DNA from: Taeniopygia guttata
Taxonomy: Eukaryota; Chordata; Aves; Passeriformes; Estrildidae
NCBI RefSeq assembly: GCF_048771995.1
Contig: NC_133059.1
Span: 3,523,001 to 3,587,000, forward strand
Reading direction: 5' to 3'
Length of the DNA stretch: 64,000 bases
Below the pieces are notes generated by a model. That model searched no databases, was not told the origin of the DNA, and saw only the letters and a list, made by a program, of their open reading frames with translations. The position numbers were made by a program, and so were the translations under genes. This document shows, piece by piece, positions 761 through 64,000 of this stretch; position 1 is the stretch's first letter; every line of letters starts with the position of its first letter.

Positions 761-868
761 AGGCACGCCTCGTCCAGCGAGGAATTTTCGGATCTCAGCG
801 ACGACTCCGATTACAGCCCCGGAGAGAAGGGACACCGGAAATACCGGGAATACAGCCCGGCCTATCCC
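761..868 (+). CDS. ZC3H4: ZC3H4 exon: acidic/serine segment
   Basis: 36 codons, phase 0 at both ends. Reads [15 protein letters not shown] and then [15 protein letters not shown], close to the human segment. Acceptor TTTTCCAG ends at 760; donor GTGAGT starts at 869. The last residues and this donor recur in the following intron at 69-bp spacing. Confidence 0.93.
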
Positions 869-3800
869 GTGAGTTTACTGGGAATACTGGGAGTAAAAAC
901 TGGGAATGAAAACTGGGAATACAGCCCGGCCTATCCCGTGAGTTTACTGGGAATACTGGGAGTAAAAACTGGGAATGAAAACTGGGAATACAGCCCGGCC
1001 TATCCCGTGAGTTTACTGGGAATACTGGGAGTAAAAACTGGGAATGAAAACTGGGAATGGTCACTGGGAAATCCTGGGAATACAGCCCAGCGTATCCCGT
1101 GAGTTTACTGGGAATACTGGGAGTGAAAACTGGGAATGAAAACTGGGAATACAGCCCGGCCTATTCCGTGAGTTTTACTGGGAATACTGGGAGTAAAAAC
1201 TGGGAATTACTGGGAGTAAAAACTGGGAATTTTTGGGAATTCCAGATCCCAACCTGTCCTATCCCATTCCCAGTGCCACCAGTACTCCCAGTTACCCTGC
1301 AATTTTTGGGAATTTTTGGGAATTTTTGTGAATTTTTGGGAATTCCGGATCCCGACCTGCCCCATCCCATTCCCAGTGCCACCAGTACTCCCAGTTACCC
1401 TGGAATTTTTGGGAATTTTTGAGAATTTTTGGGAATTTTTGTGAATTTTTGGGAATTTTTGAGAATTTTTGGGAATTTTTGGGAATTTTTGGGAATTCCT
1501 CATCCCAACCTCTCCCATCCCATTCCCAGTGCCACCAGTACTCCCAGTTGCCCTGGAATTTTGGGAATTTTTGAGAATTTTTGGGAATTTTTTGGAATTC
1601 CTCATCTCGACCTGTCCCCTCCCATTCCCAGTGCCACCAGTACTCCCAGTTGCCCCTCAAGCCCCATCCCAAGGGAATAAAAACTGGGAATTTTTGGGAA
1701 TTTTTGGGAATTCCGGATCCCGACCTGTCCCATCCCATTCCCAGTGCCACCAGTACCCCCAGTTGTCCTGGAATTTTGGGAATTTTTGGGAATTTTTGGG
1801 AATTCCGGATCCCGACCTCTCCAATCCCGTTCCCAGTGCCACCAGTACTCCCAGTTGCCCCTCAAGCCCCATCCCAAGGGAATAAAAACTGGGAATTTTT
1901 GGGGATTCTGGATCCTGACCTGTCCCCTCCCGTTCCCAGTGCCACCAGTACTCCCAGTTACCCTGGAATTTTGGGAATTTTAGGGAATTTTAGGGAATTC
2001 CATGTTCCAGGCTCTCCCATCCCATTCCCAGTGCCACCAGTACTCCCAGTTGCCCCTCAAGCCCCATCCCAAGGGAATAAAAACTGGGAATTTTGGGGAA
2101 TTTTTGGGAATTTTAGGGAATTTTTGGGAATTTTTGGGTATTTTTGGGAATTCCGGATCCCGACCTGTCCTATCCCATTCCCAGTGCCACCAGTACTCCC
2201 AGTTACCCCACAAGCCCCATGCCAAGGGTGTAATCACTGGGAATTTTTGTGAATTTTTGGGAATTTTTGGGAATTTTCGGGAATTCCGGATCCCGACCTC
2301 TCCCATCCCATTCCCAGTGCCACCAGTACTCCCAGTTGCCCCGCAAGCCCCATCCCAAGGGGGACCCCAAAGGCTTCGGGGGCTCCCTGGAGGAATTCCC
2401 GCCCGAGGCCTTCGGCCCCTTCGAGGCCGAGGAGGAGGAGGAGGCGCCCAGGGACGACCTGGACGACTTTTCCAAGGAGCTGAGCCAGTACCGGCGCTGC
2501 AAGGAGGGCACACACCGCGCCCGAGGTACGGAAAAACGGGAAAAACGGGAAAAAACGGGAAAAAGCAAAAAAATCCCAGCCAAACAGGCCGAAAAACAAC
2601 CAAAAAAAATCAATTTTTTATCATTTCCCCCCTATTTTTCGCATTTATTTTCCCATTGACGCCCGTTTTTCCCGTTTATTTTTCTGTTTTTCCCATTTAT
2701 TTTTCTATTTTTCCCATTTTTTCCCATCTTTTTCCGGTTTTTTCCCGTTATTTCCCCATTATTTCCCCGTTATTTCCCCATTTTCTCCCCATTGTTTTCC
2801 CCGTTATCTCCCTTTTATTCCTGGTTTTCTCCTCGTTATTTCTCACATTATTTCCCCGTTATCTCCCCATTATTTCCCCATTATTTCCCCCATTATCTCC
2901 TGTTATTTCCCCCATTATTTCCCCGTTTTCTCCCTGTTTTTCCCGTTATCTCCCCATTATTTCCTCATTATTTCCCCCATTATCTCCCATTATTTTCCCC
3001 ATTATGTCCCGTTATTTCCCCCATTATTTCCCCATTATTTCCCCCATTATCTCCCATTATTTCCGCCATTATTTCCCCATTTTCTCCCTGTTTTTCTCGT
3101 TATCTCCCCGTTATTTCCCCATTATTTCCCCATTATTTCCCCATTATCTCCCCGTTATTTCCCCATTATCTCCCGTTATTTCCCCCGTTATTTCCCCCTT
3201 GTTTTCCCCGTTATCTCCCCTGTTATTTCCCCGTTATCTCCCCGTTATTTCCCCATTATTTCCCCGTTATTTCCCCCATTATTTCCCCATTATTTCCCCA
3301 TTTTCTCCCTGTTTTTCCTGTTATCTCTCCATTATTTCCCCATTATTTCCCCCATTATCTCCCGTTATTTCCCCGTTATCTCCCCGTTATTCCCCCGTTG
3401 TTTCCCCGTTGTTTCCCCCTTGTTTTCCCCGTCATTCCCGGTGTCATTCCCGTTTGTTCCCGCTGTCGGCAGGCCGGGGCCGGGGCCGGCCGTTCCGGGG
3501 CCGGGGCCGGGGCCCGGGGCGGGGCCGGGGGCTGTGCCGGGGCCGCGCCCGCGCCCGCAGCGACCCCGAGGAGGAGGAGGAGCCCTTCGAGGAGGAGCTG
3601 GAGGTCAGCGGGATCCCCTGGGAATGCCGAGCCTTCCGGGCTTCGGGAATCCCGGGAATTGTCCGGGGAATTCTGGCCCCATCCCCCGGGAATTCTGACC
3701 CCAATCCCGGGGGAATTCTGACCCAGTCCCGGGGGAATTCTGACCCAATCCCATGGATCTGGAATCCTGGGAATTCTACAGGGAATTCTGACCCAATCCC

Positions 3801-6800: not shown

Positions 6801-9800
6801 TTCCCCCCCCAAATTTCCGATCCCAATTCCCAATTCCCACCCCAATTCCTGACCCCAATTCCCAATTCCCAATTCCCAATTCCCACCCCAATTCCCAATT
6901 CCCACCCCCAATTCCCCCCAAATTCCCGATTCCAATTCCCAATTCCCACCCCAATTCCCAATCCCCCCCCCAAATTCCCGACCCCAATTCCCAATTCCCC
7001 CCCCAAATTCCCAATTCCCCCCAATCCTGACCCCACTCCGGATCCCGTTGCAGGGCCGGGCCGGGGCCGTGCCCGGGGCCGGGGCCGGGGCGGGAAGGGG
7101 CCGGGTCGGGGTCGGGGCCGCGGCCGCAGCGCCAAAGGCGGCACCGAGGACGACGAGTTCTACGACGAGGAGGGGGTGAGCCCGACCCCCACTGCCCAAA
7201 TCCCCGGATTCTGCCCCAAATTCCCGGGATTTCTGATCCAGAACAGCCCAAATCCCCGGATTCTGCCCCAAATTTCCCAAATCCCCGGGATTTCTGACCC
7301 AGATTTCCCAAATTCACGGGATTTCTGCCCCAGATTTCCCAAATTCACGGGATTTCTGCCCCAGATTTCCCAAATTCACGGGATTTCTGCCCCAGAACAA
7401 CCCAAATTCCCGGGGTTGCTGTCCCAGAACAACCCAAATTCCCGGGGTTTCTGCCCCAGAACAACCCAAATTCCCGGGGATTCTGTCCCAAACTGCCCAA
7501 ATTCCCGGGATTTCTGCCCCAGGACAGCCCAAATTCCCGGGATTTCTGCCCCAAAGTGCCCAAATTCCCGGGTTTTCTGACCCAGGTTTCCCAAATCCCC
7601 GGATTCTGCCCCAAACTGCCCAAATTCCTGGGGTTCTGTCCCAAACTGCCCAAATCCCCGGATTCTGCCCCAAATCTCCCAAATCCCCGGATTCTGTCCC
7701 AAACTGCCCAAATCCCGGGGATTTCTGCCCCAGATTTCCCAAATTCCCAGGGTTCTGTCCCAAATTCCCAGGGTTTCTGTCCCAGACTGCCCAAATCCCT
7801 GGATTCTGCCCCAAACTGCCCAAATCCCCGGGATTTCTGACCCAGGTTTCCCAAATTCACGGGATTTCTGACCCAGATTTTCCAAATCCTGGGGTTTCTG
7901 TCCCAGAACAGCCCAAATTCCCGGGGTTCTGTCCCAAATTCCCGGGATTTCTGCCCCAAATTTCCCAAATTCCTGGGATTTCTGCCCCAGGTTTCCCAAA
8001 TTCCCGGGATTTCTGACCCAAACTTCCCAAATTCCCAGGATTTCTGACCCAGGTTTCCCAAATCCCGGGATTTCTGACCCAAATTTCCCAAATTCCCGGG
8101 GTTCTGTCCCAAATCCCGGGATTCTGCCCCAAATTTCCCAAATTCCCAGCGTTTCTGCCCCAGGTTTCCCAATTCCCAGGGTTTCTGTCCCAGAACAGCC
8201 CAAATTCCCGGGATTCTGCCCCAAATTTCCCAAATTCCCGGGATTTCTGACCCAAACTGCCCAAATCCCCGGGATTTCTGCCCCAAACTGCCCAAATTCC
8301 CGGGATTTCTGACTCAGAACAGCCCAAATTCCCGGGATTTCTGCCCCAGGTTTCCCAAATTCCCAGGGTTTCTGTCCCAGGACAGCCCAAATTCCTGGGA
8401 TTTTTTTCCACCCCAAATCCCAACATTTTCCCCCCAAATTCCTGGCATTTTCCACCCCAAATCCCAAGATTTTCCCCCCAAATTCCTGGCATTTTCCACC
8501 CCAAATCCCAACATTTTCCCCCCAAATTCCTGGCATTTTACACCCCAAAATCCCCCTTTTCTCCCCCAAATTCCTGTGATTTTTTTCCCCCCAAATCTCA
8601 ACATTTTCCCCCAAAATTCCCGGGATTTTTCCCCCCAAATCCCCCATTTTTCCCCCCAAAATTCCCGGGATTTTTAGCCCAGCTTTTTTTTTTTCTTTTT
8701 TTCCCGTTTTTGCCCTTTTTTGCCCCAAATGCGGCACACAGGACGGGGGCGGGTACCGGCGGGAGGACAAGGCTCACCTGCCCGCCGACAAGAAGGGCAA
8801 AGTCATCTGCAAGTACTTCCTGGAGGGCAGGTGCACCTGGGTAAGGAGCACACCTGGCACACCTGGGCACACCTGGGCACACCTGGGCACACCTGGGGGC
8901 ACACCTGGGGGCAGCTGGACACACCTGGGCACACCTGGGTACACCTGGGGGCACCTGGGCACAGCTGGGGAACACCTGGGGGGCACCTGGGAACACCTGG
9001 GGCACACCTGGGGAACAACTGGGCACACCTGGGCACACCTGGGGAACACCTGGGCACACCTGGGCACACCTGGGGCACACCTGGGCACACCTGGGGGCAC
9101 CTGGGGACACACCTGGGGACACCTGGGGGCACCTGGGAACACCTGGGGCACACCTGGGGAACACCTGGGATACACCTGGGGGCACCTGGGGAACGCCTGG
9201 GGTACACCTGGGCACACCTGGGGCACACCTGGGGAACACCTGGGGAACACCCAGACACACCTGGGCACACCTGGGGAACACCTGGGGGCACCTGGGCACA
9301 CCTGGGGGCACCTGGGGGCACCTAAATCCCACCTAAATCTCACCTGTGTCACATCTTCATCTCATCTGTGTCACACCTGTGTCACACCTGTGTCTCACCT
9401 TTATCTCACCTTTATGTCACCTGTGTCTCACCTGTCTCTCACCTGTCCCTCACCTGTCCCAACTGTCTCTCACCTGTCTCACCTGTCCCACCTGTCCCTC
9501 ACCTGTCCCTCACCTGTCCCTCACCTGTCCCTCACCTGTCCCGTGTCCCTCACCTGTCCCCCCGTGTCCCCTCAGGGCGATCACTGCAACTTCAGCCACG
9601 ACGTGGAGCTGCCCAAGAAGCGCGAGCTGTGCAAGTTCTACATCACGGGGTACTGCGCGCGGGCCGACAGCTGCCCCTACATGCACGATATCCTGCCTGG
9701 ACACGGTTAAACACGGGTTAGACACGGGTTAGACATGGGTTAGACACGGGTTAGACACGGGTTAAACCTGCCCCAAACCTGCCCTGAAACTGCCCCCGAC

Positions 9801-12800
9801 AGCTGCCCCTACATGCACGATATCCTGCCTGGACACGGTTTAAACACGGGTTAAACATGGGTTAAACATGGGTTAGACATGGGGTAAACACGGGTTAGAC
9901 ACGGGTTAGACACGGGTTAAACCTGCCCCGAACCTGCCCCGAACCTGCCCTGAAACTGCCCCCGACAGCTGCCCCTACATGCACGATATCCTGCCTGGAC
10001 ACGGGTTAAACACAGGTTAAACATGGGTTAAACATGGGTTAGACATGGGGTAAACACGGGTTAGACACGGGTTAGACACGGGTTAAACCTGCCCCGAACC
10101 TGCCCCGAACCTGCCCTGAAACTGCCCCCGACAGCTGCCCCTACATGCACGATATCCTGCTTAAACACGGGTTAAACACAGGTTAAACATGGGTTAAACA
10201 CGGGTTAAACACGGGTTAAACATGGGGGTAAACATGGGGTAAACGTGCTCCAAACCTGGGAAAAACCCATCCTAAACCCACCCTAAATCCCCCAAACCTG
10301 CCCCAAACCCACCCCAAACCCCCCTAAACCACCCCAAACCCACCAAAATTCACCCCAAGCCCACCTAAACCCACCCCAAACCCACCCCAACCCACCCTAA
10401 ACCCTCCAAAATTCACCCCAAACCCACCAAAATTCACACCAAAACCATCCAAACCCACCCTAAATCCACCAAAATTCACCCCAAACCCACCCCAAACCCA
10501 CCTAAATCCACCCCAAACCCACCAAAATTCACCCCAAACCCTCCTAAACCCACCCCAAACCCACCCTAAACCCTCCTAAATCCACCCCAAACCTTCCAAA
10601 ATTCACCCCAAATCCCCCCAAACCCCCCCAAACCCACCCAAATCCCCCCAAATTCCCCCAAACCCACCCCAAACCTAGCTGGGGCGTTTTTGGGTTTTTC
10701 CTTGACGTCCCCACGGGATTTCCCGTGTAAGTTGTTCCACACCACCGGACACTGCATCAACGGCGACACCTGCATGTTCTCCCACGCGCCGCTCTGCGAC
10801 GACACCCGACAGCTGCTGGACAAGGTATGGCACACCTGGGCACACCTGGGCACGGTTTAAATTACACCTGGGCACACCTGGGCACGGTTTAAATTACACC
10901 TGGGCACACCCCACATCACACCTGGGCACAGCCCAGATCACACCTGCATGTTCTCCCACGCGCCGCTCTGCGACGACACCCGACAGCTGCTGGACAAGGT
11001 ACACCTGGGCACACCTGGGCACACCTGGGCACACCTTAAATCACACCTGGGCACACCTGGGCACAGCTCACATCACACCTGGGCACGGCTCAGATCACAC
11101 CTGCATGTTCTCCCACGCGCCGCTCTGCGACGACACCCGACAGCTGCTCGACAAGGTATGGCACACCTGGGCACACCTGGCACACCTTAAATCACACCTG
11201 GGCACACCTGGGCACACACCTGGGTACCGCTCACATCACACCTGGGCATGGTTTAATCACACCTGGGCACGGCTCAGATCACACCTGCATGTTCTCCCAC
11301 GCGCCGCTCTGCGACGACACCCGACAGCTGCTGGACAAGGTACGGCACACCTGGCACACCTGGGCACACCTTAAACCACACCTGGGCACACCTTAAATCA
11401 CACCTGGGCACACCTGGGCACACCCCACATCACACCTGGGCACGGCTCAGATCACACCTGCATGTTCTCCCACGCGCCGCTCTGCGACGACACACGACAG
11501 CTGCTCGATAAGGTATGGCACACCTGGGCACACCTGGGCACACCTGGGCACACCTGGCACACCTGGGCACACCTCACATCACACCTGGGCACACCTGGGC
11601 ACACCTGGGCACGGCCCAGATCACACCTGCATGTTCTCCCACGCGCCGCTCTGCGACGACACGCGACAGCTGCTGGATAAGGTACACCTTAAATCACACC
11701 TGGGCACACCTGGGCATGTCTCACATCACACCTGGGCACACCTGGGCACACCTGGGCACACCTGGGCACACCTGGGCACGGCTCACATCACACCTGCATG
11801 TTCTCCCACGCGCCGCTCTGCGACGACACCCGACAGCTGCTCGATAAGGTACACCTTAAATCACACCTGGGCACACCTGGGCACACCTGGGCACGGTTTA
11901 AATTACACCTGGGCACACCTGGGCACAGCTCACATCACACCTGGGCACACCTGGGCACACCCCAAATCACACCTGGGCACAGCTCACATCACACCTGGGC
12001 ACACCTGGGCACACCTGGCACACCTTAAATCACACCTGGGCACACCTGGGCACACCTGGGCACGGCTCAGATCACACCTGGGCACACCTGCATGTTCTCC
12101 CACGCGCCGCTCTGCGACGACACCCGACAGCTGCTGGATAAGGTAAGGTACACCTGGGCACACCTGGGCACACACCTGGGCACACCTGGGTACAGCTTCC
12201 ATCACACCTGGGCACACCTGGGCACGGCTCAGATCACACCTGGGCACACCTGGGCACACCTGGGCATGGCTCACATCACACCTGGGCACAGCTTAAATCA
12301 CACCTGGGCACGGCTCAGATCACACCTGGGCACAGCTGGGCACACCCAGCCCCTTCCAGTTTCTTTCAGTTTCTCCCAGTTTAACCCAGTTTCTCCCAGT
12401 TTATCCCAGTTTCTCCCAGTTTAACCCAGTCCATCCCAGTTTAACCCATCCCAGTTCCCCCAGTCTAACCCATTTAACCCCTTCCCCCCCAGATGCTGGC
12501 CGAGGACGCCGAGGCGGGCGCAGTGCCTGCCGCTCTGTCCCAGTTTAACCCAGTTTCTCCCAATTTCTCCCAGTTTAACCCAGTTTCTCCCAATTTCTCC
12601 CAGTTTAACCCAGTTTGCTCCATCCCAGTCTCTCCCAGTTGACCCAGTTCACCCAGTTTAACCCTTTCGCCCCCAGACACTGGCCGAGGACGCCAAGGTG
12701 GGCGCAGTCCCTGCCGCTCTGTCCCAGTTTAACCCAGTTTAACCCAGTTTAACCCAGTTTCTCCCATCCCAGTCAATCCCAGTTTAACCCAGTCCATCCC

Positions 12801-15800
12801 AGTTTAACCCAGTCACTCCCAGTCTAACCCGTTTAACCCCTTCCCCCCCAGATGCTGGCCGAGGACGCCGAGGCGGGCGCAGTGCCTGCCGCTCTGTCCC
12901 AGTTTAACCCAGTTTCTCCCAGTTTAACCCAGTTTGCTCCATCCCAGTTTAACCCAGTCCATCCCAGTTCCCCCAGTCTAACCAGTTTAACCCCTTCCCC
13001 CCCAGATGCTGGCCGAGGACGCCAAGGCGGGCGCAGTCCCTGCCGCTCGGTCCCAGTTTAACCCAGTTTAACCCAGTTTAACCCATCCCAGTCAATCCCA
13101 GTTTAACCCAGTCCATCCCAGTCCATCCCAGTCTAACCAGTTTAACCCCTTCCCCCCCAGATGCTGGCCGAGGACGCCGAGGCGGGCGCTGTCCCTGCCG
13201 CTCTGTCCCAGTATAACCCAGTTTAACCCAGTTTCTCCCAGTTTAACCCATCCCAGTTCACCCAGTTTAACCCCTTCCCCCCCAGATGCTGGCCGAGGAC
13301 GCCGAGGCGGGCGCAGTGCCTGCCGCTCTGTCCCAGTTTAACCCAGTTTAACCCAGTTTCTCCCAGTTTAACCCATCCCAGTCCATCCCAGTCCATCCCA
13401 GTTCACCCAGTTTAACCCATTTAACCCCTTCCCCCCCAGATGCTGGCCAAGGACACCGAGGCAGGCGCAGTCCCTGCCGCTCTGTCCCAGTTTAACCCAG
13501 TTTCTCCCAGTTTCTCCCAGTTTCTCCCATCCCAGTCCATCCCAGTTTAACCCAGTCCATCCCAGTCTCTCCCAGTTGACCCAGTTCACCCAGTTTAACC
13601 CCTTCCCCCCCAGATGCTGGCCGAGGACGCCGAGGCGGGTGCAGTGCCTGCCGCTCTGTCCCAGTTTAACCCAGTTTATCCCAGTTTGCTCCATGCCAGT
13701 CGCTCCCAGTCCATCCCAGTTCACCCAGTCTAACCAGTTTAACCCCTTCCCCCCCAGACACTGGCCGAGGACGCCGAGGCGGGCGCAGTCCCTGCTGCTC
13801 TGTCCCAGTTTAACCCAGTTTAACCCAGTTTAACCCAGTTTCTCCCAGTTTAACCCATCCCAGTTCCCCCAGTCTAACCCATTTAACCCCTTCCCCCCCA
13901 GATGCTGGCCGAGGATGCCGAGGCGGGTGCAGTCCCTGCCGCTCTCTCCCAGTTTCTCCCAGTTTAACCCAGTTTCTCCCAGTTTAACCCAGTTTCTCCC
14001 AGTTTAACCCAGTTTCTCCCATCCCAGTTTAACCCAGTTTAACCCAGTTCACCCAGTTTAACCCTTTCCCCCCCAGATGCTGGCCGAGGACGCCGAGGCG
14101 GGCGCAGTGCCTGCCGCTCTGTCCCAGTTTAACCCAGTTTAACCCAGTTTAACCCAGTTTAACCCAGTTTAACCCATTTTAACCCAGTTTCTCCCATCCC
14201 AGTCCATCCCAGTTTAACCCAGTCCATCCCAGTCGCTCCCAGTCCATCCCAGTCCATCCCAGTCTAACCCATTTAACCCTTTCCCCCCCAGATGCTGGCC
14301 GAGGATGCCGAGGCGGGCGCAGTGCCTGCTGCTCTGTCCCAGTTTCTCCCAGTTTAACCCAGTTTCTCCCAGTTTAACCCATCCCAGTCCATCCCAGTCT
14401 AACCAGTTTAACCCCTTCCCCCCCAGATGCTGGCCGAGGACGCCGAGGCGGGCGCGCAGGACGAGAAGGAGCTGCAGGAGCTGCGCAAACAGGGCATCGA
14501 CCCCCTGCCCAAACCCCCCCCGGGCGTGGGGCTGCTGCCCACCCCCCCCCGGCCCCCCTCCCCCCCCCGCGGCCTGCCCCTCCCCCCCCCGCCCCCCCTG
14601 CCCCTCCCCCCGCCCCTGGAGCCCCCCCTGGAGCCCCCCCCGGACCCCTTCAAGAAGATCCCGTCGCTCTTCGAGATCGTCGTGCGGCCCACGGGGCAGC
14701 TGGCCGAGAAGCTGGGGGTCAGGTGGGCACAGCTGGGCACACCTGGGATACACCTGGGCACAGCTGGGGCACCTGGGGGCACCTGGGGGCACCTGGGCAT
14801 GGCTGAGATCACACCTGGGGCACAGCTGGGGCACCTGGGGGCACCTGGGATACAGCTGGGCATACCTGGGGGCAGCTGGGCACACCTGGGGCACACCTGG
14901 GGGCACCTGGGGTACACCTGGGTACATCTGGGGTACACCTGGGCACAGCTGGGGACACCTGGGGACACACCTGGGGGCACCTGGGATACAGCTGGGCATA
15001 CCTGGGGGCAGCTGGGCACACCTGGGGCACACCTGGGGGCACCTGGGGGGCACCTGGGCACACCTGGGGGCACCCGGACACAGCTGGGCACAGCTGGGGG
15101 CAGCTGGGCGTCAGGTGGGCACAGCTGGGCACACCTGGGGGCACCTGGGTACACCTGGGGCACAGCTGGGGACAACTGGGCACACCTGGAGCACAACTGG
15201 GGACAACTGGGCACACCTGGAGCACAACTGGGGACAACTGGGGCACACCTGGGGGCACCTGGGTACAACTGCGGGCACCTGGGGGCACCTGGGCACAGCT
15301 GGGATACACCTGGGGGCACCTGGGGACACACCTGGGGGCACCTGGGCACACCTGGGTGCAACTGGGCATGGCTGAGATCACACCTGGGCACACCTGGGGC
15401 ACACCTGGGCACACCTGGGGGTCAGGTGGGCACAGCTGGCACACCTGGGGGCAGCTGGGGAACACCTGGGGGCACCTGGGCACACCTGGGGGCAGCTGGG
15501 GGCACAGCTGGGATACACCTGGGTACATCTGGGCATGGCTGAGATCACACCTGGGCACAGCTGGGGGTACCTGGGGCACACCTGGGGCACTCCTGGGGCA
15601 CCAATTTCATTCCCAATTTTCCCACTTTCCCGTCTTTTCTTCCCATTCCCATCCCAATTTTCCCCATTTTTCTCCCAATTTCCCCGTTCCCATCTAAATT
15701 TCCCCATTTTTCCCGTTTTTCTCCCAATTTCCTGTTTTTCCCCCAATTTCACTCCCGTTTTCCCGTTTTTCCCGTTTTTCCCCCGTTTTTCCCCAATTTC

Positions 15801-18800
15801 ACTCCCGTTTTTCCCCCGTTTTTCCCATTTTTCCCAATTTCACTCCGTTTTCCCCCTTTTTTCCAGGCACCCGGGGCCGCCCCCCCCGCGCTTCCCGGGC
15901 CCCCCCGGGGCGCCGCCCCTCCCCCACCCCGAGCTGGGGGGGGGGTTCGAGGAGCCGCCCCTCCCCCACCCGGGGCTGCCCCCCCCGGGCTTCTACGAGG
16001 GGGGAGGGGCGTTCTACCCCCCCGAGGGGCTGGAGAGGGAGACCCCCCCGGGGGGGAGGGGCCAGGTGAGCGGGGGGGGGGGGAGGGGAGATTGGGGTGG
16101 GGGAGGGGCAATTGGGGTGGGGGAGGGGAGATCCGGGGTGGGGGAGGGGGAAATTGGGGTGGGGGAGGGGAAATTGGGGTGGGGGAGGGGAAATTGGGGT
16201 GGGGGAGGGGAGATCCGGGGTGGGGGAGGGAAAATCCCGGGAAAATGGGGGGGGAGGGGGGCAGGTGATCCCCAAATCCCCCAATTCCAGCCCAAAACTC
16301 CCAATCCCACCCCAAACTCCCCAATCTCACCCCAAACCCACCATTTCCACCCCAAACTCCCCAATTCCACCTCAAATCCCCCAATCTCACCCCAAACCCC
16401 CAATTCCACCCCAAAATCCCCTCTCCCCACCCCAAATCCCCCATTTCCACCCCAAACTCCCCCATTTCCACCCCAAATCCCCTCTCCCCACCCCAAATCC
16501 CCCATTTCCACCCCAATCCCACCCCAAATCCCCTCTCCCCACCCCAAATCCCCCAATCCCACCCCAAATCCCCCATTTCCACCCCAAATCTCCCATTTCC
16601 ACCCCAAATTCCCCATTTCCACCCCAAATCCCCTCTCCCCTCCCCAAATCCCCCATTTCCACCCCAATTCCACCCCAAATCTCCCTCTCCCCACCTCAAA
16701 TCCCCCAATCTCACCCCAAACCCCCCAATTCCACCCCAAATCCCCCATCTCCACCCCAATCAAACCCCAAATCCCCTCTCCCCACCCCAACCCCCCCTCT
16801 GCCCCCAACAAACCCCCAAAATCTCCTTTTTTCCCCCAAACAGACGACGACTTCGCCTCCTACGCCGCGGCCGAGGGCCCCGGGGGGGATCCGCGCTTCC
16901 CCGAGGGGTCCCTGGAGGCCGAGGGCGGCCCGGGGGTCCCGGGGGGCCCCGGGGGGGTCCCGGGGGGTCCCGGGGGGGTCCCGGGGGGTCCCGGGGGGGG
17001 TCCCGGGGCCCTGGCGGAGCTGCTGCCGTCGGCGCAGCGCGCGCTCTTCCTGCGCATCCGCCACAAGCAGCGGCACGAGGAGCGCGGCCGGAGGGCGGCC
17101 GAGGGCGGCCGGGGAGAGCGGCAGCACGAGGAGGGTGAGCCGGACCCCAAATCCGGGTTCTGAGCCCCGAAATTCGGGTGTGAGCCTCGAAATCCTCATC
17201 CTGAGCACCGAAATCCTCATCCTGAGCTGAGCCCCAAAATCCCAGTCCTGAGCCTAAAATCCCTGTCCTGAGCTGGTCCTGAAATCCCAGTCCTGAGCCG
17301 GACCCCACATCCCGGTCTGAACCCCGAAATTCGGGTCTGAGCCCCGAAATTCTCATCCTGAGCCCCGAAATTCTCATCCTGAGCTGAGCCCCAAAATCCC
17401 GGTCCTGAGCCCCGAAATCCCGGTCCCAAGCCCCGAAATCTGGTCCTGAGCACCGAAATTCGGGTCTGAGCCCCAAAATTCCAGTCCTGAGCTGAGCCCC
17501 GAAATCCCGGTTCTGGGCCCCAAAATCCCGGTCCCGAGCCCAAAATTCGGGTCTGAGCCCTGAAATCCTCACCCTGAGCCTAAAATCCCGGTCTGAGCCC
17601 CGAAATTCTCATCCTGAGCCCCGAAATCCTCACCCTGAGCCTAAAATCCCGGTCCTGAGCCGGACCCCAAATCCCGGTCCTGAACCACAAAGTTCGGGTG
17701 TGAGCCCCGAAATTCTCATCCTGAGCCCCGAAATTCTCATCCTGAGCACCGAAATTCGGGTCTGAGCCCCGAAATTCTCATCCTGAGCCCCAAAATCCTC
17801 ACCCTGAGCCTAAAATCCCAGTTCTGAACCCCAAAATTCTGGTCTGAGCCCCAAAATCCTCATCCTAGGCACTGAAATTTGGTCCTGAACCCCAAAATCC
17901 CGGTCCCAAGCCCCAAAATTCGGGTCTGAGCCCAAAAATCCTCACCCTTAGCCCCGAAATTTGGTCCTGAACCCTGAAATCCCGGTCCCGAGCCCCAAAA
18001 TCTGGTCCTGAGCTGAGCCCCGAAATTCTCATCCTGAGCCCCGAAATCCTCATCCTGAGCTGAGCCCCAAAATCCCGGTCCTGAGCTGAGCCCCAAAATC
18101 CCGGTTCTGAGCCCCAAAATCCTCATCCTGAGCTATTATTTCTCTTTCTATTTTAATATTTATTTCTAGTTTCATTTCTATTTTAATATTTATATTTATA
18201 TTTATATTTATATTTATATTTATATTTACATTTACATTTACATTTACATTTACATTTAATTTACATTTCTGCCCCCCTCCCAGCAGACCCCGGCAGTTGG
18301 TACTCGAGCGACGAGGACGACGCCGACGGCGGCAGCGGCAGCGTCTCCTCCATCCTCAAATCGCTGCGGCAGCAAAGCTCCGCCCGAGCCCCCAACGCAC
18401 CGGGGGACCCCCCGAGCGACCCCCGCCTGCCGCGGCCGCCCCGGCCCGCCGGGCCCCGGCCCCGGGACCCGCGGCTGGCCCGGAACCGGGAACCCAGTCC
18501 CGAGTCCGGTCCGTGGGACCCGCGGCTGGCCCGGAACCGGGAACCGAGCCCCGAGCCCGGTCCGTGGGACCCCCGTTTGTCCCGGAACCGGGAGCCGAGC
18601 CCCGACCCCGGCCCGTGGGATCCCCGTTTGTCCCGGAACCGAGAGCACAGTCCCGAGCCCGGCCCGTGGGACCCGCGGCTGGCCCGGAACCGGGAACCGA
18701 GCCCCGAGTCCGGTTGGAACCCGCGTTTGTCCCGAAACCAGGAGCCCAACCCCGATCCCGGTTGGGACCCCCGTTTGTCCCGGAACCGGGAGCCCAGCCC

Positions 18801-38880: not shown

Positions 38881-38885
38881 TTATT
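38880..38885 (-). terminator. CKM: CKM poly(A) signal AATAAA
   Basis: TTTATT on plus, 122 bp past the stop codon, in GGTTCCAATAAACGCTGC read on minus. Three further copies of the surrounding sequence downstream have lost this motif. Confidence 0.82.
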
Positions 38886-39006
38886 GGAACCGCTCTGGGG
38901 GGACTCGGGGGGTCCCCGGGAGGACTCGGGGGGGCCCCGGGAGGATTTGGGGGGTCCCCGGGAGGATTTGGGGGGTCCCCGCGGGGGTCCCCAGCCGCCC
39001 CCTCCC

Positions 39007-45100: not shown

Positions 45101-48100
45101 GGCATGCACCTGGGCACGGCCAGGACACTCCCAAATCCATCCCAAATCCATCCCAAATCCACCCCAAACCCAGCCCGAATTAATCCCAAATCCATCCCAA
45201 AACCCCACCTGGGCACGGGCCTACCTGGGCACGCACCTGGGCACGGGCCTGGCACGGGCCCAGCACGCCCGGGACACTCCCAAATCCATCCCAAATCCAT
45301 CCCAAATCCACCCCAAACCCAGCTCGAATTAATCCCAAATCCATCCCAAAATCCCACCTGGGCACGGCCTGGGCATGCACCTGGGCATGACTAGCCACGC
45401 CCGGCCACGCCCGGCCACGCCAAATGTGGATTGGTTGTGTACGTCTCTCCCAAATCCATCCCAAATTCATCCCAAGTCCATCCCAAATCTATCCCAAATC
45501 CATCCCAAAATCCCACCTGGGCACGGGCCTACCTGGGCACACACCTGGGCACGCACCTGGGCATGGCCGGGACACGCCCGGGACACTCCCAAATCCATCC
45601 CAAATCCATCCCAAATCTATCCCCAGATCCATCCCAAACCCACCCCAAATCCCATCCCAAAATCTCCCCGAAATCCACCCCAATTCCAGACCCCAAATCC
45701 ACCCCAAATCCACCCCAAATTCCATCCCAAACACACCCCAAATCAATCCTAAATCCACCCCAAATCTACCCCAAATCCACCCCAATTCGAAACCCCAATT
45801 CCAAACCCCAAATCCATCCCAAAATCTACCCCAAATCCACCCCAAATCCATCCAAAATTAATCCCAAACCCGCCCCAACCCCAACCCCACCCTCTTAGGC
45901 CACACCCACCCACCACACCCATTTAGGCCACACCCACCCTACCACACCCATGCGGACTATGCCCACCACACCCACACAGGCCACACCTCTTTAGGCCACT
46001 CCCACCCGGCTACACCCACCAGTGTCACACCCATTTAGGCCACGCCCACCCGGCCACACCCTCTCAGGCCCCGCCCACCCTGCCACACCCTCTCAGGCCC
46101 CGCCCACCTTTGACCGAGAGCTTCTCGATGGCGCGGCGCTCCCCGCGGCTGCAGTGCGGCGGCAGCGAGTAACCCTTGATGCTGCGGCCGGTGCGCACGC
46201 GGCTGCTCAGCACGTACTTGGGGTCCAGGTCCTCGCCGCCCTGCGCCCCAAAACCGGTCACCCCAAAAAACCCCAAAAATCCACCCAAAAAAACCCCAAA
46301 TTCCACCCAAAAAACCCCCCAAAAACTCCCATTGAAATATTCCCAAATAGAGCCAAAGTATCTCCCCAATGAGACCCCCACACTGCTCAGCACGTACTTG
46401 GGGTCCAGGTCCTCGCCGCCCTGCGCCCCAAAACCGGTCACCCCAAAAACCCCGAAATTCCACCCCAAAAACCCCCCAAGAATCTCCCATCGAAATATCC
46501 CCAAATAGACCCAAAATCATCCTGAAATATCTCCCCAGTGAGACCCCCGCCCTGCTCAGCACGTACTTGGGGTCCAGGTCCTCGCCGCCCTGCGCCCCAA
46601 AACGGGTTACCCCAAAAAAACCCCAAATTCCACCCCAAAAAACCCCAAAATTACACCCAAAAACTCCCCAAAAACTCCCATCGAAATATCCCCAAATAGA
46701 CCCAAAATCATCCTGAGATATCTCCCCTATGAGACCCCCGCCCAGCTCAGCACGTACTTGGGGTCCAGGTCCTCGCCGCCCTGCACCCCGAAACGGGTCA
46801 CCCCAAAAAAACCCCAAATTACACCCAAAAAACCCCAAAATTACACCCAAAAAACTCCCATCGAAACATCCCCAAATAGACCCAAAATCATCCTGAGACA
46901 TCTCCCCAATGAGACCCCCGCACTGCTCAGCACGTACTTGGGGTCCAGGTCCTCGCCGCCCTGCGCCCCAAAAACCGGTCACCCCAAAAAAACCCGAAAT
47001 TCCAACCCAAAAACCCCGAAATTACACCCGAAAAACCCCAAAATTCCACCCCCAAAAACCCAAAATCTCCCCCTTAAAGAAATCCCCCCCAAACCCCTCC
47101 TGAGGTGGCTTTGAGGGGCCACCACCCCTTCCTGCCCTCCTGAGACCTCTGGTGGCCCTCTCAGATTTTGGGGACCTCTCCAAATTTTGGGGACCCTCCC
47201 AAATTTTGGAACCCCCCCAGATTTGGGGGTTCCCCCCCCAAATTTTGGGGTCCCCACCTTGAGGTTCTCGTGGTTGAGGTCGGTGCGGTGCTTATTGGTG
47301 GCTTTGAGGAGCATCACCCCATGGTGGCCCTGTCACCCCTTCCTGCCCTCCTGAGACCTCTGGGGACCTCCCAGATTTTGGGGACCCTCCCAAATTTTTG
47401 GAACCCCCCAAATTTTGGGGTTCCCCACCTTGAGGTTCTCGTGGTTGAGGTTGGCGTTTATCGGTGGCTTTGTGGGGTCACCCCTTCCTGCCCTCCTGAG
47501 ACCTCTGGTGGCCCTCCCAGATTTTGGGGACCCTCCCAAATTTTGGAACCCCCCAAATTTCGGGGTTCCCGCCCAGATTTGGGGTCCCACCTTGAGGTTC
47601 TCGTGGTTGAGGTCGGTGCGGTGCTTCTCGGTGGGTTAGTGGCATCACCCCATGGTGACCCCGTCACCCCTTCCTGCCCTCCTGAGACCTCTGGTGGCCC
47701 TCCCAGATTTTGGAACCCCTCCCAAATTTTGGACCCCCCAAATTTTGGGGTCCCACCTTGAGGTTCTCGTGGTTGAGGCTGGTGCTTATCGGTGGCTTTG
47801 TGGGGTCACCCCATGGTGGCCCCGTCACCCCTTCCTGCCCTCCTGAGACCTCTGGTGGCCCTCCCAGATTTTGGGGACCCTCCCAAATTTTGGAACCCTC
47901 CCAAATTTTGGAACCCCCCCAAAATTTCGGGGTTCCCACCTTGAGGTTCTCGTGGTTGAGGTCGGTGCTTATCAGTGGCTTTGTGGGGCATCACCCCATG
48001 GTGGCCCCATCACCCCTTCCTGTCCTCCTGAGACCTCTGGGGACCTCTCCAAATTTTGGAACCCCCCCAAATTTTGGAACCCCCCAAATTTCGGAACCCC

Positions 48101-50990
48101 CCAGATTTGGGGTCCCACCTTGAGCTTCTCGTGGTTGAGGTCGGTGCGGTGCTTATCGGTGGGTTTGAGGGGCATCATCCCATGGTGGCCCCATCACCCC
48201 TTCCTGCCCTCCTGAGACCTCTGGTGGCCCTCCCAGATTTTGGGGACCCTCCCAAATTTCGGGGACCCTCCCAAATTTTGGAACCCCCCCAAATTTCGGG
48301 GTTCCCCACCAGATTTGGGGTCCCCACCTTGAGGTTCTCCTGGTTGAGGTTGGCACTTCTCGGTGGCTTTGAGGGGCATCACCCCATGGTGGCCCCACCA
48401 CCCCTTCCTGCCCTCCTGAGACCTCTGGTGGCCCTCCCAGATTTTGGGGACCCTCCCAAATTTTGGAACCCCCCAAATTTTGGGGTTCCGCCCAGATTTG
48501 GGGTCCCACCTTGAGGTTCTCGTGGTTGAGGTCGGTGCGGTGCTTGTCGGTGGGTTTGTAGCCGCCGTGCCGGTCCTGGATCACGGGGTCGAAGAGCTCC
48601 TTGAACACCTCGTAGGACTCCTCGTCCCCGGCCACGCAGCCCACGGTCATGATGAACGGGTGGCCTGGGGTCACCGGGGTCACGGGGTCACCGGGGTCAC
48701 CGGGGTCACCAGGGGTCACCGGGGTCACCGGGGTCACCAGGACCAGTATGGGACTGGGATTGGGTATGGGACCAGTATGGGATTGGAGAGCGACCCACGG
48801 TCATGATGAACGGGTGGCCTGGGGTCACCGGGTCACCGGGGTCAGCGGGGTCACCGGGGGTCACCAGGGTCACCGGGGTCACCGGGACCAGTATGGGACT
48901 GGGATTGGGTACTGGGACCAGTATGGGATTGGAGAGCGACCCACGGTCATGATGAACGGGTGGTCTGGGGTCACCGGGGGTCACCGGGGTCACCGGGGTC
49001 ACCGGGGGTCAGCGGGGTCACCGGGGGTCAGCGGGGTCACCAGGGGTCACCGGGGGTCACCGGGGTCACCGGGGGTCACCGGGACCAGTATGGGACTGGG
49101 ATGGGCTACTGGGACCAGTTTGGGATTGGAGAACGACCCACGGTCATGATGAACGGGTGGCCTGGGGTCACCGGGGTCACCGGGGTCACCGGGGTCACCA
49201 GGGGTCACCGGGGGTCACCAGGGGTCACCGGAGTCACCGGGGTCACCGGGACCAGTATGGGACTGGGATGGGCTACTGGGACCAGTATGGGATTGGAGAG
49301 CGACCCACGGTCATGATGAAGGGGTGGCCTGGGGTCACCGGGGTCACCGGGGGTCACCGGGGTCACCGGGGGTCACCAGGGGTCACCAGGGGTCACCAGG
49401 ACCAGTATGGGACTGGGATTGGGTATGGGACCAGTTTGGGATTGGAGAGCGACCCACGGTCATGATGAACGGGTGGCCTGGGGTCACCGGGGTCACCGGG
49501 GTCACCAGGGTCACCGGGGTCACCGGGAGGTCACCAGGGGTCACCGGGGTTACCGGGACCAGTATGGGACTGGGATTGGGTACTGGGACCAGTACGGGAT
49601 TGGAGAGCGACCCACGGTCATGATGAACGGGTGGCCTGGGGTCACTGGGGTCACAGGGGTCACCGGGGTCACCGGGGTCACCGGGGTCACCGGGGGTCAG
49701 CGGGGGTCACCAGGGTCACCAGGGGTCACCAGGGTCACCGGGGTCACCAGGACCAGTATGGGACTGGGATGGGTTACTGGGACCAGTATGGGACTGGAGA
49801 GCGACCCACGGTCATGATGAATGGGTGGCCTGGGGTCACCGGGGTCACCGGGGTCACCGGGGTCACCGGGGGTCACCGGGGTCACCGGGGTCACCAGGGT
49901 CACCAGGACCAGTCTGGGACTGGGATGGGCTACTGGGACCAGTATGGGACTGGGACTGGGGCTGAAGACCCCATGGGTGGCCTGATGACCCCATGAATGG
50001 TCTGATGACTCCATGGGTGGGCTGATGACCCCATGGATGAGTTGGAGACCCCATGGGTGGCCCGGGGACCCCATGGATGGCCTGATGACCCCATGGATGG
50101 CCTGATGACCCCATGGACCATTTGGAGACCCCTTGGGTGGCCTAATGACCCCATGGGTGGCCTGATGACCCCTCAGGTGGGCTGAAGACCCCATGGATGA
50201 GTTGGAGACCCCATGGACCATTTGGAGACCCCTCGGGTGGCCTTATGACCCCATAGATGAGTTGGAGAACTCATGGATGGGCTGATGACCCCATGGGTGG
50301 GCTGAAGACCCCATGGCCCATTTGGAGACCCCATGGGTGGGCTGATGACCCCATAGATGGCCTGAAGACCCCATAGATGGCCTGATGACCCCATGGATGG
50401 CCTGATGACCCCATGGATGAGTTGGAGACCCCTTGGGTGGGCTGATGACCCCATGGGTGGGCTGATGACCCCTCGGGTGGGCTGATGACCCCATGGATGG
50501 CCTGATGACCCCATGGATGGCCTGATGACCCCATGGACCATTTGGAGACCCCTTGGGTGGGCTGATGACCCCATGGGTGGGCTGATGACCCCTTGGGTGA
50601 CCTGATGACCCCATAGATGAGTTGGAGACCCCATAGATGGCCTGAAGACCCCATAGATGGCCTGATGACCCCATGGATGGGCTGATGACCCCATAGATGA
50701 GTTGGAGACCCCATGGGTGGGCTGAAGAGCCCTTGGATGGCCTGATGACCCCTCAGGTGGGCTGAAGACCCCCCGGGTGGGCCGGTCGGGGACGCACCGG
50801 GGTTGTCCACGCCGGTCTGGATGACGTCGTCGAGGGTGAAGCCGCTCGGGGTCTCCTTGTCGCGCAGCTTCTGGTAGAGCGCCGGCGTGAGGACCTTGGC
50901 CATGTGGTTGTTGTGCTTGGAGAGGTCCGGGAACTCCTCCTCGGCCGAGAACTTCTGCTTGTACTTGTTGTGGGTGTTGCTGAAGGGCAT
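39007..50990 (-). CDS. CKM: CKM, muscle creatine kinase, complete coding region
   Basis: Cytosolic kinase that transfers phosphate between ATP and creatine in muscle, bound in part at the M-line. Coding exons (minus): 50990-50798, 48664-48510, 46240-46108, 43825-43654, 41971-41848, 41353-41164, 39185-39007. They total 381 codons plus stop, the family length, with every phase consistent. Key residues are present: Glu232 in VWVNEEDH, Cys283 in [15 protein letters not shown], and the ADP-binding arginines in [12 protein letters not shown]. It starts [11 protein letters not shown] and ends DDMIPAQK. The sequence is nearest to avian M-type rather than brain-type (CKB). Intron positions match the vertebrate gene; introns 1-7 are minisatellites. 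Confidence 0.98.
39186..41163 (-). repeat. CKM: CKM intron 7: copies of exon 8 start and exon 7 end
   Basis: 39190-40500: about 175-bp units of GACAGATGGACACAGGGGTG with TGACCACTCACTGACC, each carrying GTGTCCACCCCCCCTGGAC (exon 8 acceptor edge) near 39352, 39527, 39706, 39878, 40034, 40213 and 40388; two have lost the AG. 40510-41163: CAGGTGAATTTTGGGG units with three copies of the exon 7 donor edge at about 40669, 40811 and 40995. Confidence 0.86.
41164..41353 (-). CDS. CKM: CKM exon 7: active-site cysteine
   Basis: 190 nt: [59 protein letters not shown]. Cys283 lies in the CPSNLGTG signature. Donor ACAG|GTGGGA; three decoy copies of the last 50-60 bases follow. Confidence 0.97.
41354..41847 (-). 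repeat. CKM intron 6: GGGGACA and CCCCAAATGT arrays
   Basis: 41360-41560 is GGGGACAATGAGGGGACA; 41580-41840 is TGTCCCCAAATGTCCCC. A partial copy of exon 6 (41632-41693) is embedded. Confidence 0.82.
41848..41971 (-). CDS. CKM: CKM exon 6
   Basis: 124 nt: completes Trp218, then [41 protein letters not shown]. Carries catalytic Glu232. A damaged copy of its 3' part with donor is at about 41632-41693. Confidence 0.97.
41972..43653 (-). repeat. CKM: CKM intron 5: CCCCCAGGTGCCCC array with donor copies
   Basis: 41980-42200 is CCAGGTGTGCCCAGGTGTG; to 43650 it is CCCCCAGGTGCCCCAAGCTT and similar, with CAGGTG in almost every unit. GTGCCCACCAGATGCC (exon 5 donor edge) appears near 42588, 42796, 42905 and 43368. 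Confidence 0.82.
43654..43825 (-). CDS. CKM: CKM exon 5
   Basis: 172 nt: [57 protein letters not shown] and a split Trp. Donor ATCTG|GTGGGC; the donor edge CATCTG|GTGGGC recurs four or five times in the downstream intron. Confidence 0.97.
43826..46107 (-). repeat. CKM intron 4: long GGGCACG/CAAATCCATCCC units
   Basis: 43840-45590: 200-330-bp higher-order units with CACCTGGGCACGGGCCTGGG, GCCACGCCAAATGTGGATTG and ATCCCAAATCCATCCCAAA. 45600-45890 is simple CCAAATCCACCCC. 45890-46100 is GGCCACACCCACC. No exon. Confidence 0.8.
46108..46240 (-). CDS. CKM: CKM exon 4
   Basis: 44 codons plus one base: [44 protein letters not shown]. Contains nucleotide-binding arginines. The 5' half with acceptor is repeated four times in intron 3. 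Confidence 0.97.
46241..48509 (-). repeat. CKM: CKM intron 3: copies of exon 4 start and exon 3 end
   Basis: 46241-47090: four copies (about 46388, 46554, 46746, 46926) of CTCAGCACGTACTTGGGGTC through the acceptor. 47100-48509: seven copies (about 47257, 47428, 47590, 47757, 47939, 48118, 48328) of ACCTTGAGGTTCTCGTGGTT, the exon 3 donor edge, set in CTCCTGAGACCTCTGGTGGC units of about 170-180 bp. Confidence 0.9.
48510..48664 (-). CDS. CKM: CKM exon 3
   Basis: 155 nt: [51 protein letters not shown]. Phase 1 in, 0 out. Its acceptor end is copied seven times upstream in intron 2 and its donor end seven times downstream in intron 3. Only this copy joins the two ends. Confidence 0.96.
48665..50797 (-). 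repeat. CKM: CKM intron 2: copies of exon 3 start, then ATGG array
   Basis: 48665-49930: seven copies (about 48796, 48945, 49137, 49306, 49457, 49611, 49806) of CACGGTCATGATGAACGGGT with the acceptor, embedded in GGGGTCACCGGGGTCACC. 49970-50790: 20-bp GACCCCATGGATGGCCTGAT units. Confidence 0.9.
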
Positions 50991-50997: not shown

Positions 50998-51082
50998 CTG
51001 CGGGGACATGGGGACATCGTGGGGACACCGTGGGGACATCGTGGGGACACCATGGTGGGAATGGGGACACGGGGACAGGAAC

Positions 51083-51146
51083 TCCTCCTCGGCCGAGAAC
51101 TTCTGCTTGTACTTGTTGTGGGTGTTGCTGAAGGGCATGGTGGCAC
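51083..51146 (-). pseudogene. CKM: Partial copy of CKM exon 2 with acceptor and ATG
   Basis: Minus strand: CTGCAG|TGCCACC ATG and about 20 codons identical to CKM ([20 protein letters not shown]), then GGGGACA repeat. No donor follows. It is an exon-edge duplicate in intron 1, about 150 bp upstream of the real exon. Confidence 0.88.
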
Positions 51147-51943
51147 TGCAGGGACATGGGGACACCGTGGGGACATGGTGGGGACATCATGGGGACATGG
51201 GGACACCATGGAGACATGGGGACATGGTGGGGACATGGAGACACCATGGGGATATGGTGGGGACATGGTGGGAATGGGGACATTGAGGGGACATTGTGGG
51301 GAGACCGTGGGGACATGGGGACATGGTGGGGACACCGTGGGGACACCATGGGGACACCGTGGGGACGGACATGGGGACGTCATGGGGACACCATGGGGAC
51401 ATGGTGGGGACACCATGGGGACATCGGGGGACATGGTGACACAGGGGACACCATGGGGACACCATGGGGACACTGTGAGGACATGGGGACACAGTGGCAC
51501 TGTGGGGACACGGGGACAGCCAGGTGACACGGGGGATCACGGGGACAGCCAGGTGACACCAGGGGACACCGTGGGGACATGGTGGGAATGGAGACATGGG
51601 GACATCATGGGGACACCATGGGGACATCAGGGGACATGGTGACACAGGGGACACTGAGGGGACATTGTGGGGACACTGTGAGGACATGGGGACACGGGGA
51701 CATGGTGGCACTGTGGGGACACGGGGACAGCCAGGTGACACTGGTGACATGGGGTGGGGGGGACACACGACTCTGGGGCGTGTCCTGGTGGGCGTGTCCA
51801 TCCAGGGGGCGTGTCCCGAAATGGGCGTGTCCCTCAAGGGGCGTGTCCATCAAGGGGCGTGTCCCTCAGGGGGCGTGTCCTTAAGGGGGCGTGTCCTTAA
51901 AGGGGGCGTGGCCGCCCCGCTCCGCTCCATGTTCGGGTCGGGG

Positions 51944-53000: not shown

Positions 53001-53023
53001 GGACCGGGACCCCCCAGGGGCGC

Positions 53024-54660: not shown

Positions 54661-54672
54661 GGGAAATCTGAT

Positions 54673-54678: not shown

Positions 54679-54679
54679 G

Positions 54680-55490: not shown

Positions 55491-63357
<7,867 letters not shown>

Positions 63358-64000
63358 CTGGATTTTGGGGGAGATTTGGGCTTATTTGGGACCCCAAAAA
63401 TCCCAACATTTCTAAAATCCCAAAAATCCCCCCAGAAATCCCTCAAAAAACTCAAAAATTCCCCAAAAAAACCCCAAAAATCCCCCCAAAATCCCTCCCC
63501 AGAGCTCCAGGAGCAGCTGCCCCTAATTTCGGGTCACTGCTGGATTTTGGGGGGATTTGGGGTTATTGGGACCCCCAAAAAAACTCCAAAACTGCCAAAA
63601 ATCCCAGAAATCTGAAAGACCCCAAAATTCCCTCAAAAAAACCCAAAAAAAACCCCAAAATCCCCAAATTTCCCCCAGCCCCAATGATGTCCTCGCAGAT
63701 CTCAAATTTGGAGATCACGGTCACCCCAAAACATCCAAAATTCCCCCAAAATCCCCCCCAAAAAACCCCAAAATCCCTCTGAGACCCCTCCCCAAAATCC
63801 CCCAGACCCCAAAAACCCCAAAATCCTCAAATTTCCCCCCAAAAATCCCAAAATTTCCCCCAAATTTCCCCCAGCCCCAATGATGTCCTCGCAGATCTCA
63901 AATTTGGAGATCACGGTCACCCCAAAACCTCCAAAATTCCCCCAAAATCCCCCCAAAAAACCCCAAAATCCCTCTGAGACCCCTCCCCAAAATCCCCCAG
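63358..64000 (-). repeat. ERCC2: ERCC2 intron 16: fragments of exons 16 and 17
   Basis: 63500-63545 copies the exon 17 acceptor edge. 63680-63722 and 63875-63917 (minus) read VTVISKFEICEDI, like human VTISSKFETREDI at the end of exon 16. Neither has a GT where a donor is expected (GACATCATTGGGG). The true exon 16 is probably beyond the window. The rest is CCCCAAAATCCCC sequence. Confidence 0.6.

Follow-up and report, generated by a model that had tools for sequence, protein, structure and literature searches.

Tandem copies of exon ends within introns have been described on chicken dot chromosomes under the terms exon stuttering and sequence stuttering (Hron et al., 2026; Genome Biol Evol evag038, PMC12954441). 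A stretch of 64 000 nt from Taeniopygia guttata (RefSeq assembly GCF_048771995.1, contig NC_133059.1, forward-strand positions 3 523 001–3 587 000), referred to here as the window, is a further and real example of this known phenomenon. A preliminary description of the window, made from the sequence alone, held that no named class of element was like its splice-junction repeats; the class had already been named.

In the portion of the chicken paper covered here, the copied exon part is 20–187 bp in length and comes to within 1 base of the exon border in >90% of cases, the number of copies is 1–44, individuals differ in repeat length, and raw nanopore reads are reported to have verified the general repeat structure at PHF8 (PMC12954441). 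Local repeat expansions are also noted in some other birds, and slippage, unequal exchange or conversion is only speculated on as the engine. The window shares the essential properties described in that portion: a lateral part of a coding exon, together with its donor or acceptor, is tandemly copied through the adjacent intron; matches are proximal and not distal; and related genes elsewhere have no copies. Dot chromosomes are preferred in chicken. Median values are also close, with an exon part of 36 bp in chicken and 35.5 here, and 4 copies in chicken and 3.5 here. Differences are that the genome is other than chicken, that one array copies a U12-type AT-AC donor, and that regions with AATAAA are repeated and in-frame arrays are present inside two coding exons. 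In addition, a coding signature, a size cap and a deficit of arrays at short exons are measured here. A literature search found the stuttering terms only in PMC12954441, and the portion covered of a chicken genome paper (PMC9974502) makes no mention of exon copies.

Other described systems are related. Introns of the GC-rich 'hidden' avian genes consist of GC-rich tandem repeats, as they do here, but copying of exon edges with splice sites is not described in the portion covered of that work (Beauclair et al., 2019, PMC6792250). Tandem duplication across exon sequence is likewise involved in intron gain by tandem genomic duplication. The result there, according to the portion covered, is a new intron (PMC4974935); here no gain of introns is seen, and the splice sites in a given copy are of one kind. 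Array-derived insertions are absent from the joined CKM, ERCC2 and ZC3H4 zinc-finger proteins when these are compared with solved relatives. Exon duplication, including that of mutually exclusive exons, places tandem whole exons with both splice sites in an intron. Tandem exon sequence within an intron is thus a shared property, but none of the 33 arrays analysed here has a whole exon.

Exon-edge copies in the window

The window has ZC3H4 (+ strand), PPP1R14A (−), SPINT2 (+), CKM (−) and the 3′ part of ERCC2 (−). Exon models (ZC3H4 E1–E12, SPINT2 S1–S6, PPP1R14A P1–P4, CKM K1–K8 and ERCC2 exons 17–23) were derived from the sequence and verified by translation, with the terminal outer ends (K1, P4, S1 and the coding ends) assumed. 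Junctions are labelled by exon plus d for the donor edge or a for the acceptor edge (e.g. E9d, K2a), those of ERCC2 as R or H. The CKM product aligns over its whole length with muscle creatine kinase of solved structure, the joined ERCC2 (exons 2–23, including sequence beyond the window) aligns with human XPD, and the ZC3H4 zinc fingers align with KIAA1064 (PDB 2cqe); PPP1R14A matches PP1_inhibitor and SPINT2 matches two Kunitz stretches. Tandem repeats (TRF) cover 93% of the 32 complete introns (41222/44139 nt), whose median length is 1212.5 nt.

Splice junctions of these introns number 64, all in one assembly. An extra exon edge with its splice site is found in the adjacent intron at 22 of them, with 90 copies in total. 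Junction queries were required to match through the junction with at least 12 exon nt and at least 6 intron nt, at a BLAST score of at least 50, in the adjacent intron. Raw matches numbered 127 at 25 junctions, and 37 were removed (E9d 15; K2a 14, one scoring 51; E10d 2; S5d 2; K5d 1; P1d, S2d and R22d 1 each), which took away every match of E10d, S5d and K5d. The arrays and single copies are as follows; the array at the ZC3H4 E7 donor is given below with its intron, and the last two entries concern ERCC2 copies that lie in the window and were confirmed with sequence past it.

869–1198 (+), ZC3H4 E1 donor array: 4 copies, exon edge of 29–32 nt plus GTGAGT, unit mostly 69 nt
1245–2317 (+), ZC3H4 E2 acceptor array: 9 copies, ...cccag plus 24–44 nt of E2
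10825–12171 (+), ZC3H4 E8 donor array: 7 copies, 59 nt of the 110 nt exon
12463–14426 (+), ZC3H4 E9 acceptor array: 12 copies, 29 nt of E9
15091–15139 (+), ZC3H4 E9 donor: 1 copy, score 74; edge motif also in other introns
28622–28674 (−), PPP1R14A exon 1 donor: 1 decayed copy, GG for GT, score 51, marginal
31559–31763 (+), SPINT2 S2 acceptor: 2 copies, 18 exon nt
31932–32554 (+), SPINT2 S2 donor array: 4 copies, up to 61 exon nt; junction not aligned as GT
35257–35951 (+), SPINT2 S6 acceptor array: 5 copies, 14–32 exon nt
39186–40433 (−), CKM K8 acceptor array: 7 copies, 25 exon nt
40643–41163 (−), CKM K7 donor array: 3 copies, 55–67 exon nt
41609–41692 (−), CKM K6 donor: 1 decayed copy, 67 exon nt, 72% identity, GT present
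46241–46991 (−), CKM K4 acceptor array: 4 copies, 36–38 identical exon nt
47226–48509 (−), CKM K3 donor array: 7 copies, 49–53 exon nt
48665–49860 (−), CKM K3 acceptor array: 7 copies, 25 exon nt
51078–51175 (−), CKM K2 acceptor: 1 copy, 68 identical exon nt including the start codon
56395–56431 (−), ERCC2 exon 22 donor: 1 copy, 17 exon nt, score 54, marginal
56722–57127 (−), ERCC2 exon 22 acceptor: 2 copies, 52 exon nt
57585–58773 (−), ERCC2 exon 21 donor array: 6 copies, 69 exon nt
59128–59199 (−), ERCC2 exon 21 acceptor: 1 copy, 42 exon nt
62218–62626 (−), ERCC2 exon 18 acceptor: 2 copies, 54–66 nt of the 93 nt exon
63502–63542 (−), ERCC2 exon 17 acceptor: 1 copy, 42 exon nt
63677–63920 (−), ERCC2 exon 16 donor: two of three copies, 40 exon nt; the real exon 16 is past the window, at 64252–64315

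Extra copies number 1–12 per junction, or 2–13 with the real edge (median of 3.5 extra copies over 22 arrays), and the copied exon part is 17–69 nt (median 35.5). The splice dinucleotide is kept in 83/90 copies. Four of the seven misses are at S2d, two at K8a and one at P1d; those at S2d are three alignment gaps and one GC, and another GT is readable in these copies. Where an intron has arrays at both ends, copies of the donor are on the donor side and copies of the acceptor on the acceptor side in all nine cases, five in the window and four in the extension of ERCC2 described below. The single copy of the CKM exon 2 acceptor, which has the start codon, would be a possible additional translation start if spliced in.

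The copies are local. A screen in the style of the published one (blastn-short, at least 20 nt and at least 42.1 bits, proximal versus distal introns of the same gene) gives 69 proximal matches at 18/64 junctions and no distal match in other introns of the same gene; in one shuffle of each gene's introns the best match is 24.3 bits, with none at the 42.1-bit cut-off. The exon border is reached within 1 base in 59/69 of these matches, the misses being at E8d (4), S2d (4), K6d (1) and E9a (1). With the junction queries, the best junction-spanning match in any other intron scores 47 and the best in 10 mononucleotide shuffles scores 25. When the 22 positive junctions were compared with 94 kb on both strands, 113 matches of at least 50 (the real edges included) were on the sense strand of their own introns, and two were out of place (scores 59 and 54), both to the E9 donor. 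P1d (51), R22d (54) and one K8a copy (56) are marginal because the out-of-place matches score similarly.

A generic motif as cause of the copies was rejected, there being no distal match in the exon screen; yet the E9 donor shares a motif with other places. It also has a match on the opposite strand. A motif, CACACCTGGG, is common to three ZC3H4 introns (8841–9323, 10825–12346 and 14723–15597). Such an inter-intron motif may have spread or arisen in parallel.

ERCC2 exons 2–17 were modelled on 20 kb past the window, and 11/30 junctions there have 44 copies; the best match in a non-adjacent intron of this extension scores 45.

The preliminary description thus saw exon-edge copies that are real and local, and gave the range of 2–13 per junction that is also found here. 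Its list of ZC3H4, SPINT2, CKM and ERCC2 overlooked a fifth gene, PPP1R14A (24.9–29.5 kb), and its remark that copies occur only on the intron side is true in part by definition.

Chromosomal setting and paralogous genes

The contig of the window (contig 36) is 4.45 Mb in length, in a genome of 1.14 Gb and 41 contigs, and looks like a dot chromosome. Tandem-repeat cover is 0.813 in the window. Samples of 10 kb along the contig have a cover of 0.77–0.93 at 2.5–3.6 Mb (five samples) and 0.06–0.12 at 0.5–2.0 Mb (four samples). Single 10 kb samples of other contigs give 0.61–0.90 (contigs 33, 34, 35, 38 and 39), 0.33 (contig 37), 0.21 (contig 25), 0.18 (contig 30) and 0.007–0.018 (contigs 1, 5 and 20).

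Creatine kinase genes are also found on contig 7 (CKB-like), contig 12 (mitochondrial type) and contigs 40 and 41 (others), these labels being inferred. This order of contigs fits a songbird numbering that includes 1A and 4A and places Z and W last. Exon copies are absent from the four loci across 23 approximate introns, the exon ends having been taken from tblastn matches that are approximate and miss some exons. Tandem-repeat cover is 0–0.04 at these loci and 0.15 at the locus of contig 12.

Size limits on the copied exon part

Twenty-two arrays of the window and 11 of the ERCC2 extension were analysed together; where an array has a single copy, the distance to that copy served as the unit. 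In none of the 33 arrays does the exon part exceed 69 nt or 0.46 of the unit. Whole exons are found in 0/33, compared with 6.3 expected under uniform unit borders (P0 = 0.0003), which bears out the statement in the preliminary description that copies never include the whole exon. In the window arrays alone, there are 0 versus 3.5 expected (P0 = 0.014).

Arrays are also fewer beside short exons. When window and extension are pooled, copies are present at 2/24 junctions of exons of 85 nt or less and at 31/69 junctions of longer exons (p = 0.001). If K1 and P4, with their assumed outer ends, are left out, the values are 2/22 and 31/69 (p = 0.002). In the window the corresponding values are 0/14 and 22/50.

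Coding signature of the copies

The exonic part of the copies has a coding signature. Variable sites at codon positions 1, 2 and 3 are 29/310, 12/312 and 35/307, respectively (phase-rotation p = 0.0003). The ratio of nonsynonymous to synonymous changes (N/S) was corrected by the substitution spectrum that these copies show in their intronic part. It is 0.51 in the window (0.27–0.79 when junctions are bootstrapped), 0.54 in the ERCC2 exons outside the window (p = 0.048) and 0.53 when pooled (p = 0.0005). For sites at which some of the copies still agree with the exon, the pooled counts are 37 synonymous and 44 nonsynonymous, with a corrected N/S of 0.45 (p = 0.0003). Exonic sites are less variable (115/1338) than intronic sites at least 7 nt from the junction (112/755; p = 1.5e-5).

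Exon edge and copies behave as one family. The mean exon–copy distance is 4.8% and the mean copy–copy distance 4.3% in the 20 arrays with at least three copies, and the exon edge is closer to the copies in 9 and further in 7 of these arrays. At the protein level, residues of ERCC2 that differ from human are 32/219 in edges covered by arrays and 133/538 in uncovered parts (p = 0.002); residues of CKM that differ from rabbit are 14/113 and 23/268 (p = 0.26). A role of the arrays as a reservoir that speeds protein change was therefore rejected, ERCC2 going in the opposite direction and CKM not being significant.

With respect to use of the copies in frame, the extension is a multiple of three in 35 of the 90 window copies, and only 4/90 are also free of stop codons: E1d (+69 and +138), K4a (+180) and K7d (+492). 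Translation of the copies is thus an unlikely source of the signature, and the new in-frame peptide proposed in the preliminary description is mostly unavailable. Most likely, the signature comes from the constrained history of the exon itself, the copies being snapshots of the edge or corrected against it.

Origin of the arrays

The observations are best explained as exon stuttering on a bird dot microchromosome, in which sequence is amplified locally in tandem, the products are tolerated as half-exons and the exon edge belongs to the array family; the probability of this reading is put at roughly 0.78. Intron sequence would be amplified by repeated local tandem duplication and homogenized by slippage, unequal exchange or conversion. 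If a duplicated block straddles a junction, the intron would receive an exon edge together with a single splice site. The resulting copy may be tolerated because it is a half-exon without the opposite splice site and hence is unlikely to be defined as an exon, while the real edge, beside the intact exon, would stay in use. Blocks with a whole exon, or much of one, would be removed by selection, and selection through exon definition fits the size rule. Newer copies would be made from, or corrected against, an exon edge that itself evolves under protein constraint. Selection on the exon combined with slippage or unequal exchange in the intron was also proposed in the preliminary description, and is still the best reading. 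Its picture of exon ends pulled outward is not borne out by the copies: the edge beside the intact exon persists, and edge and copies form one family.

Several points weigh against exon stuttering filtered in this way. Among the matches of the published-style screen, 10/69 end more than 1 nt off the exon border. The deficit at short exons is a tendency outside the window (2/10 versus 9/19, p = 0.23, H2d excluded); the 85 nt cut-off was picked post hoc, junctions that belong to the same exon lack independence, and uniform offsets make a crude null. A strict rule that short exons never stutter was rejected, ERCC2 exons 14 and 16 having copies, and the size cap is not absolute because chicken exon parts reach 187 bp in the portion of the paper covered (PMC12954441). 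The cap could also come from an intron-seeded process with a short reach into exons. As to the coding signature, the out-of-sample codon-position rotation test alone gives p = 0.21, and sites where all copies differ from the exon have an N/S of 0.69 (p = 0.18). Similarity does not follow distance from the exon (mean rho −0.15, 6/11 negative), and neighbouring copies are no more alike than others (9/16); simple outward growth from the exon was rejected, as there is neither a distance gradient nor a neighbour effect. Finally, the evidence is the sequence of one assembly alone.

The main rival to selection through exon definition is a mechanical one, whereby intron-seeded amplification slides a short way into exons and no selective filter is involved. 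This is possible, if distinctly less probable than not. Tandem repeats fill introns regardless of edge copying (41222/44139 nt, versus copies at 22/64 junctions), and exon parts are short even beside long exons. Alone, however, a mechanical process leaves unexplained why arrays are fewer by short exons (2/24 versus 31/69, weaker outside the window), and the in-frame arrays in ZC3H4 E12 (51 nt) and PPP1R14A exon 1 (30/60 nt), described below, indicate that the process can act within exons.

Conversion might also proceed from intron to exon, the arrays being a reservoir that rewrites exon ends, with selection as a filter. Consistent with this, exon edge and copies act as one family, and the synonymous excess is also found where some copies match the exon (N/S 0.45, p = 0.0003). 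But covered edges evolve no faster, ERCC2 showing the opposite (p = 0.002) and CKM no significant difference (p = 0.26), and such conversion is considered unlikely. The broader proposal is equally doubtful, namely that exon ends and intronic copies are one concertedly evolving family with traffic both ways, in which arrays would store past states of exon ends and could rewrite the coding edge, including that around the minor-spliceosome donor.

That the copies are functional, as alternative splice sites, decoys or added peptide, is improbable. The splice dinucleotide is kept in 83/90 copies and four extensions are open in frame, but no more than these 4/90 are both in frame and open, and splice dinucleotides are not clearly more conserved than intronic sites (4/64 variable versus 112/755 of other intronic sites, p = 0.06, S2d excluded). 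An assembly artefact, in which a single edge was assembled many times, is very improbable, as the preliminary description also judged: low-complexity GC-rich arrays are hard to assemble and one assembly was examined, but the copies differ in sequence and spacing and carry the coding signature, the four paralogous loci are clean in the same assembly, and nanopore reads verified the repeat structure of chicken PHF8 according to the portion of the paper covered (PMC12954441).

Minor-spliceosome intron, transcript ends and arrays inside exons

Hallmarks of U12-type AT-AC introns are an ATATCCT donor and a TCCTTRAC-like branch point near an AC acceptor. The intron between ZC3H4 E7 and E8 has the following features.

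9688–10182 (+), ZC3H4 E7 donor array, U12-type AT-AC intron: real ATATCCT at 9688, copies at 9820, 9986 and 10152
10699–10714 (+), U12 branch-point-like TCCTTGAC at 10699, then ...CCAC, with the AC acceptor at 10713–10714: single, unrepeated

By these sequence motifs, the intron fits the definition of the U12-type AT-AC class. The joined protein across the E7–E8 junction is gap-free versus PDB 2cqe. The 24 exon nt are identical in all three copies, and the donor is present four times in all. Since a U12 AT-AC donor is repeated, the copying process would be independent of GT-AG signals. No publication that combines U12-type with ZC3H4 was found in the literature search.

Repeats are also present at presumed transcript ends.

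37572–38127 (+), SPINT2 downstream AATAAA units: four identical 26 nt copies 3′ of the stop codon
38303–38887 (−), presumed CKM 3′ end: segment with AATAAA (minus strand) at 38865–38887, and three further-downstream copies without AATAAA

Transcript ends appear to stutter like exon ends, the AATAAA sequences being putative poly(A) signals.

Two coding exons have arrays of their own, and the earlier statement that exons are single and intact is thus not fully right. The last exon of ZC3H4 (E12) has an in-frame 51 nt coding array of about 13 copies of the DPRL type at 18464–19134, and PPP1R14A exon 1 has an in-frame 30/60 nt coding array of the EPGRGSP type at 29279–29520. Instability therefore enters exons when the frame is kept. 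A rule that repeats in coding exons are always a multiple of three was rejected, as only 17/26 exonic TRF rows conform; the nine others are weaker readings of the main arrays or short arrays beside them.

Two further observations concern the ZC3H4 model. The frame is not joined between E10 and E11 as modelled (16065–16844), probably because a homopolymer has the wrong length or a border is misplaced. A cagcag tandem acceptor (NAGNAG) is found at E12 (18281–18286).

Significance

Exon stuttering has now been found in a genome other than the chicken reference. The size limits suggest a quantitative rule whereby half-exons with one splice site are tolerated and whole exons are not; if this is true, the arrays are natural experiments on exon definition. 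One intron can hold up to 13 near-identical acceptors or eight donors, and a minor-spliceosome donor can be present four times. The coding signature in apparently untranslated sequence suggests that the exon has repeatedly been the source of copies, or the template for their correction.

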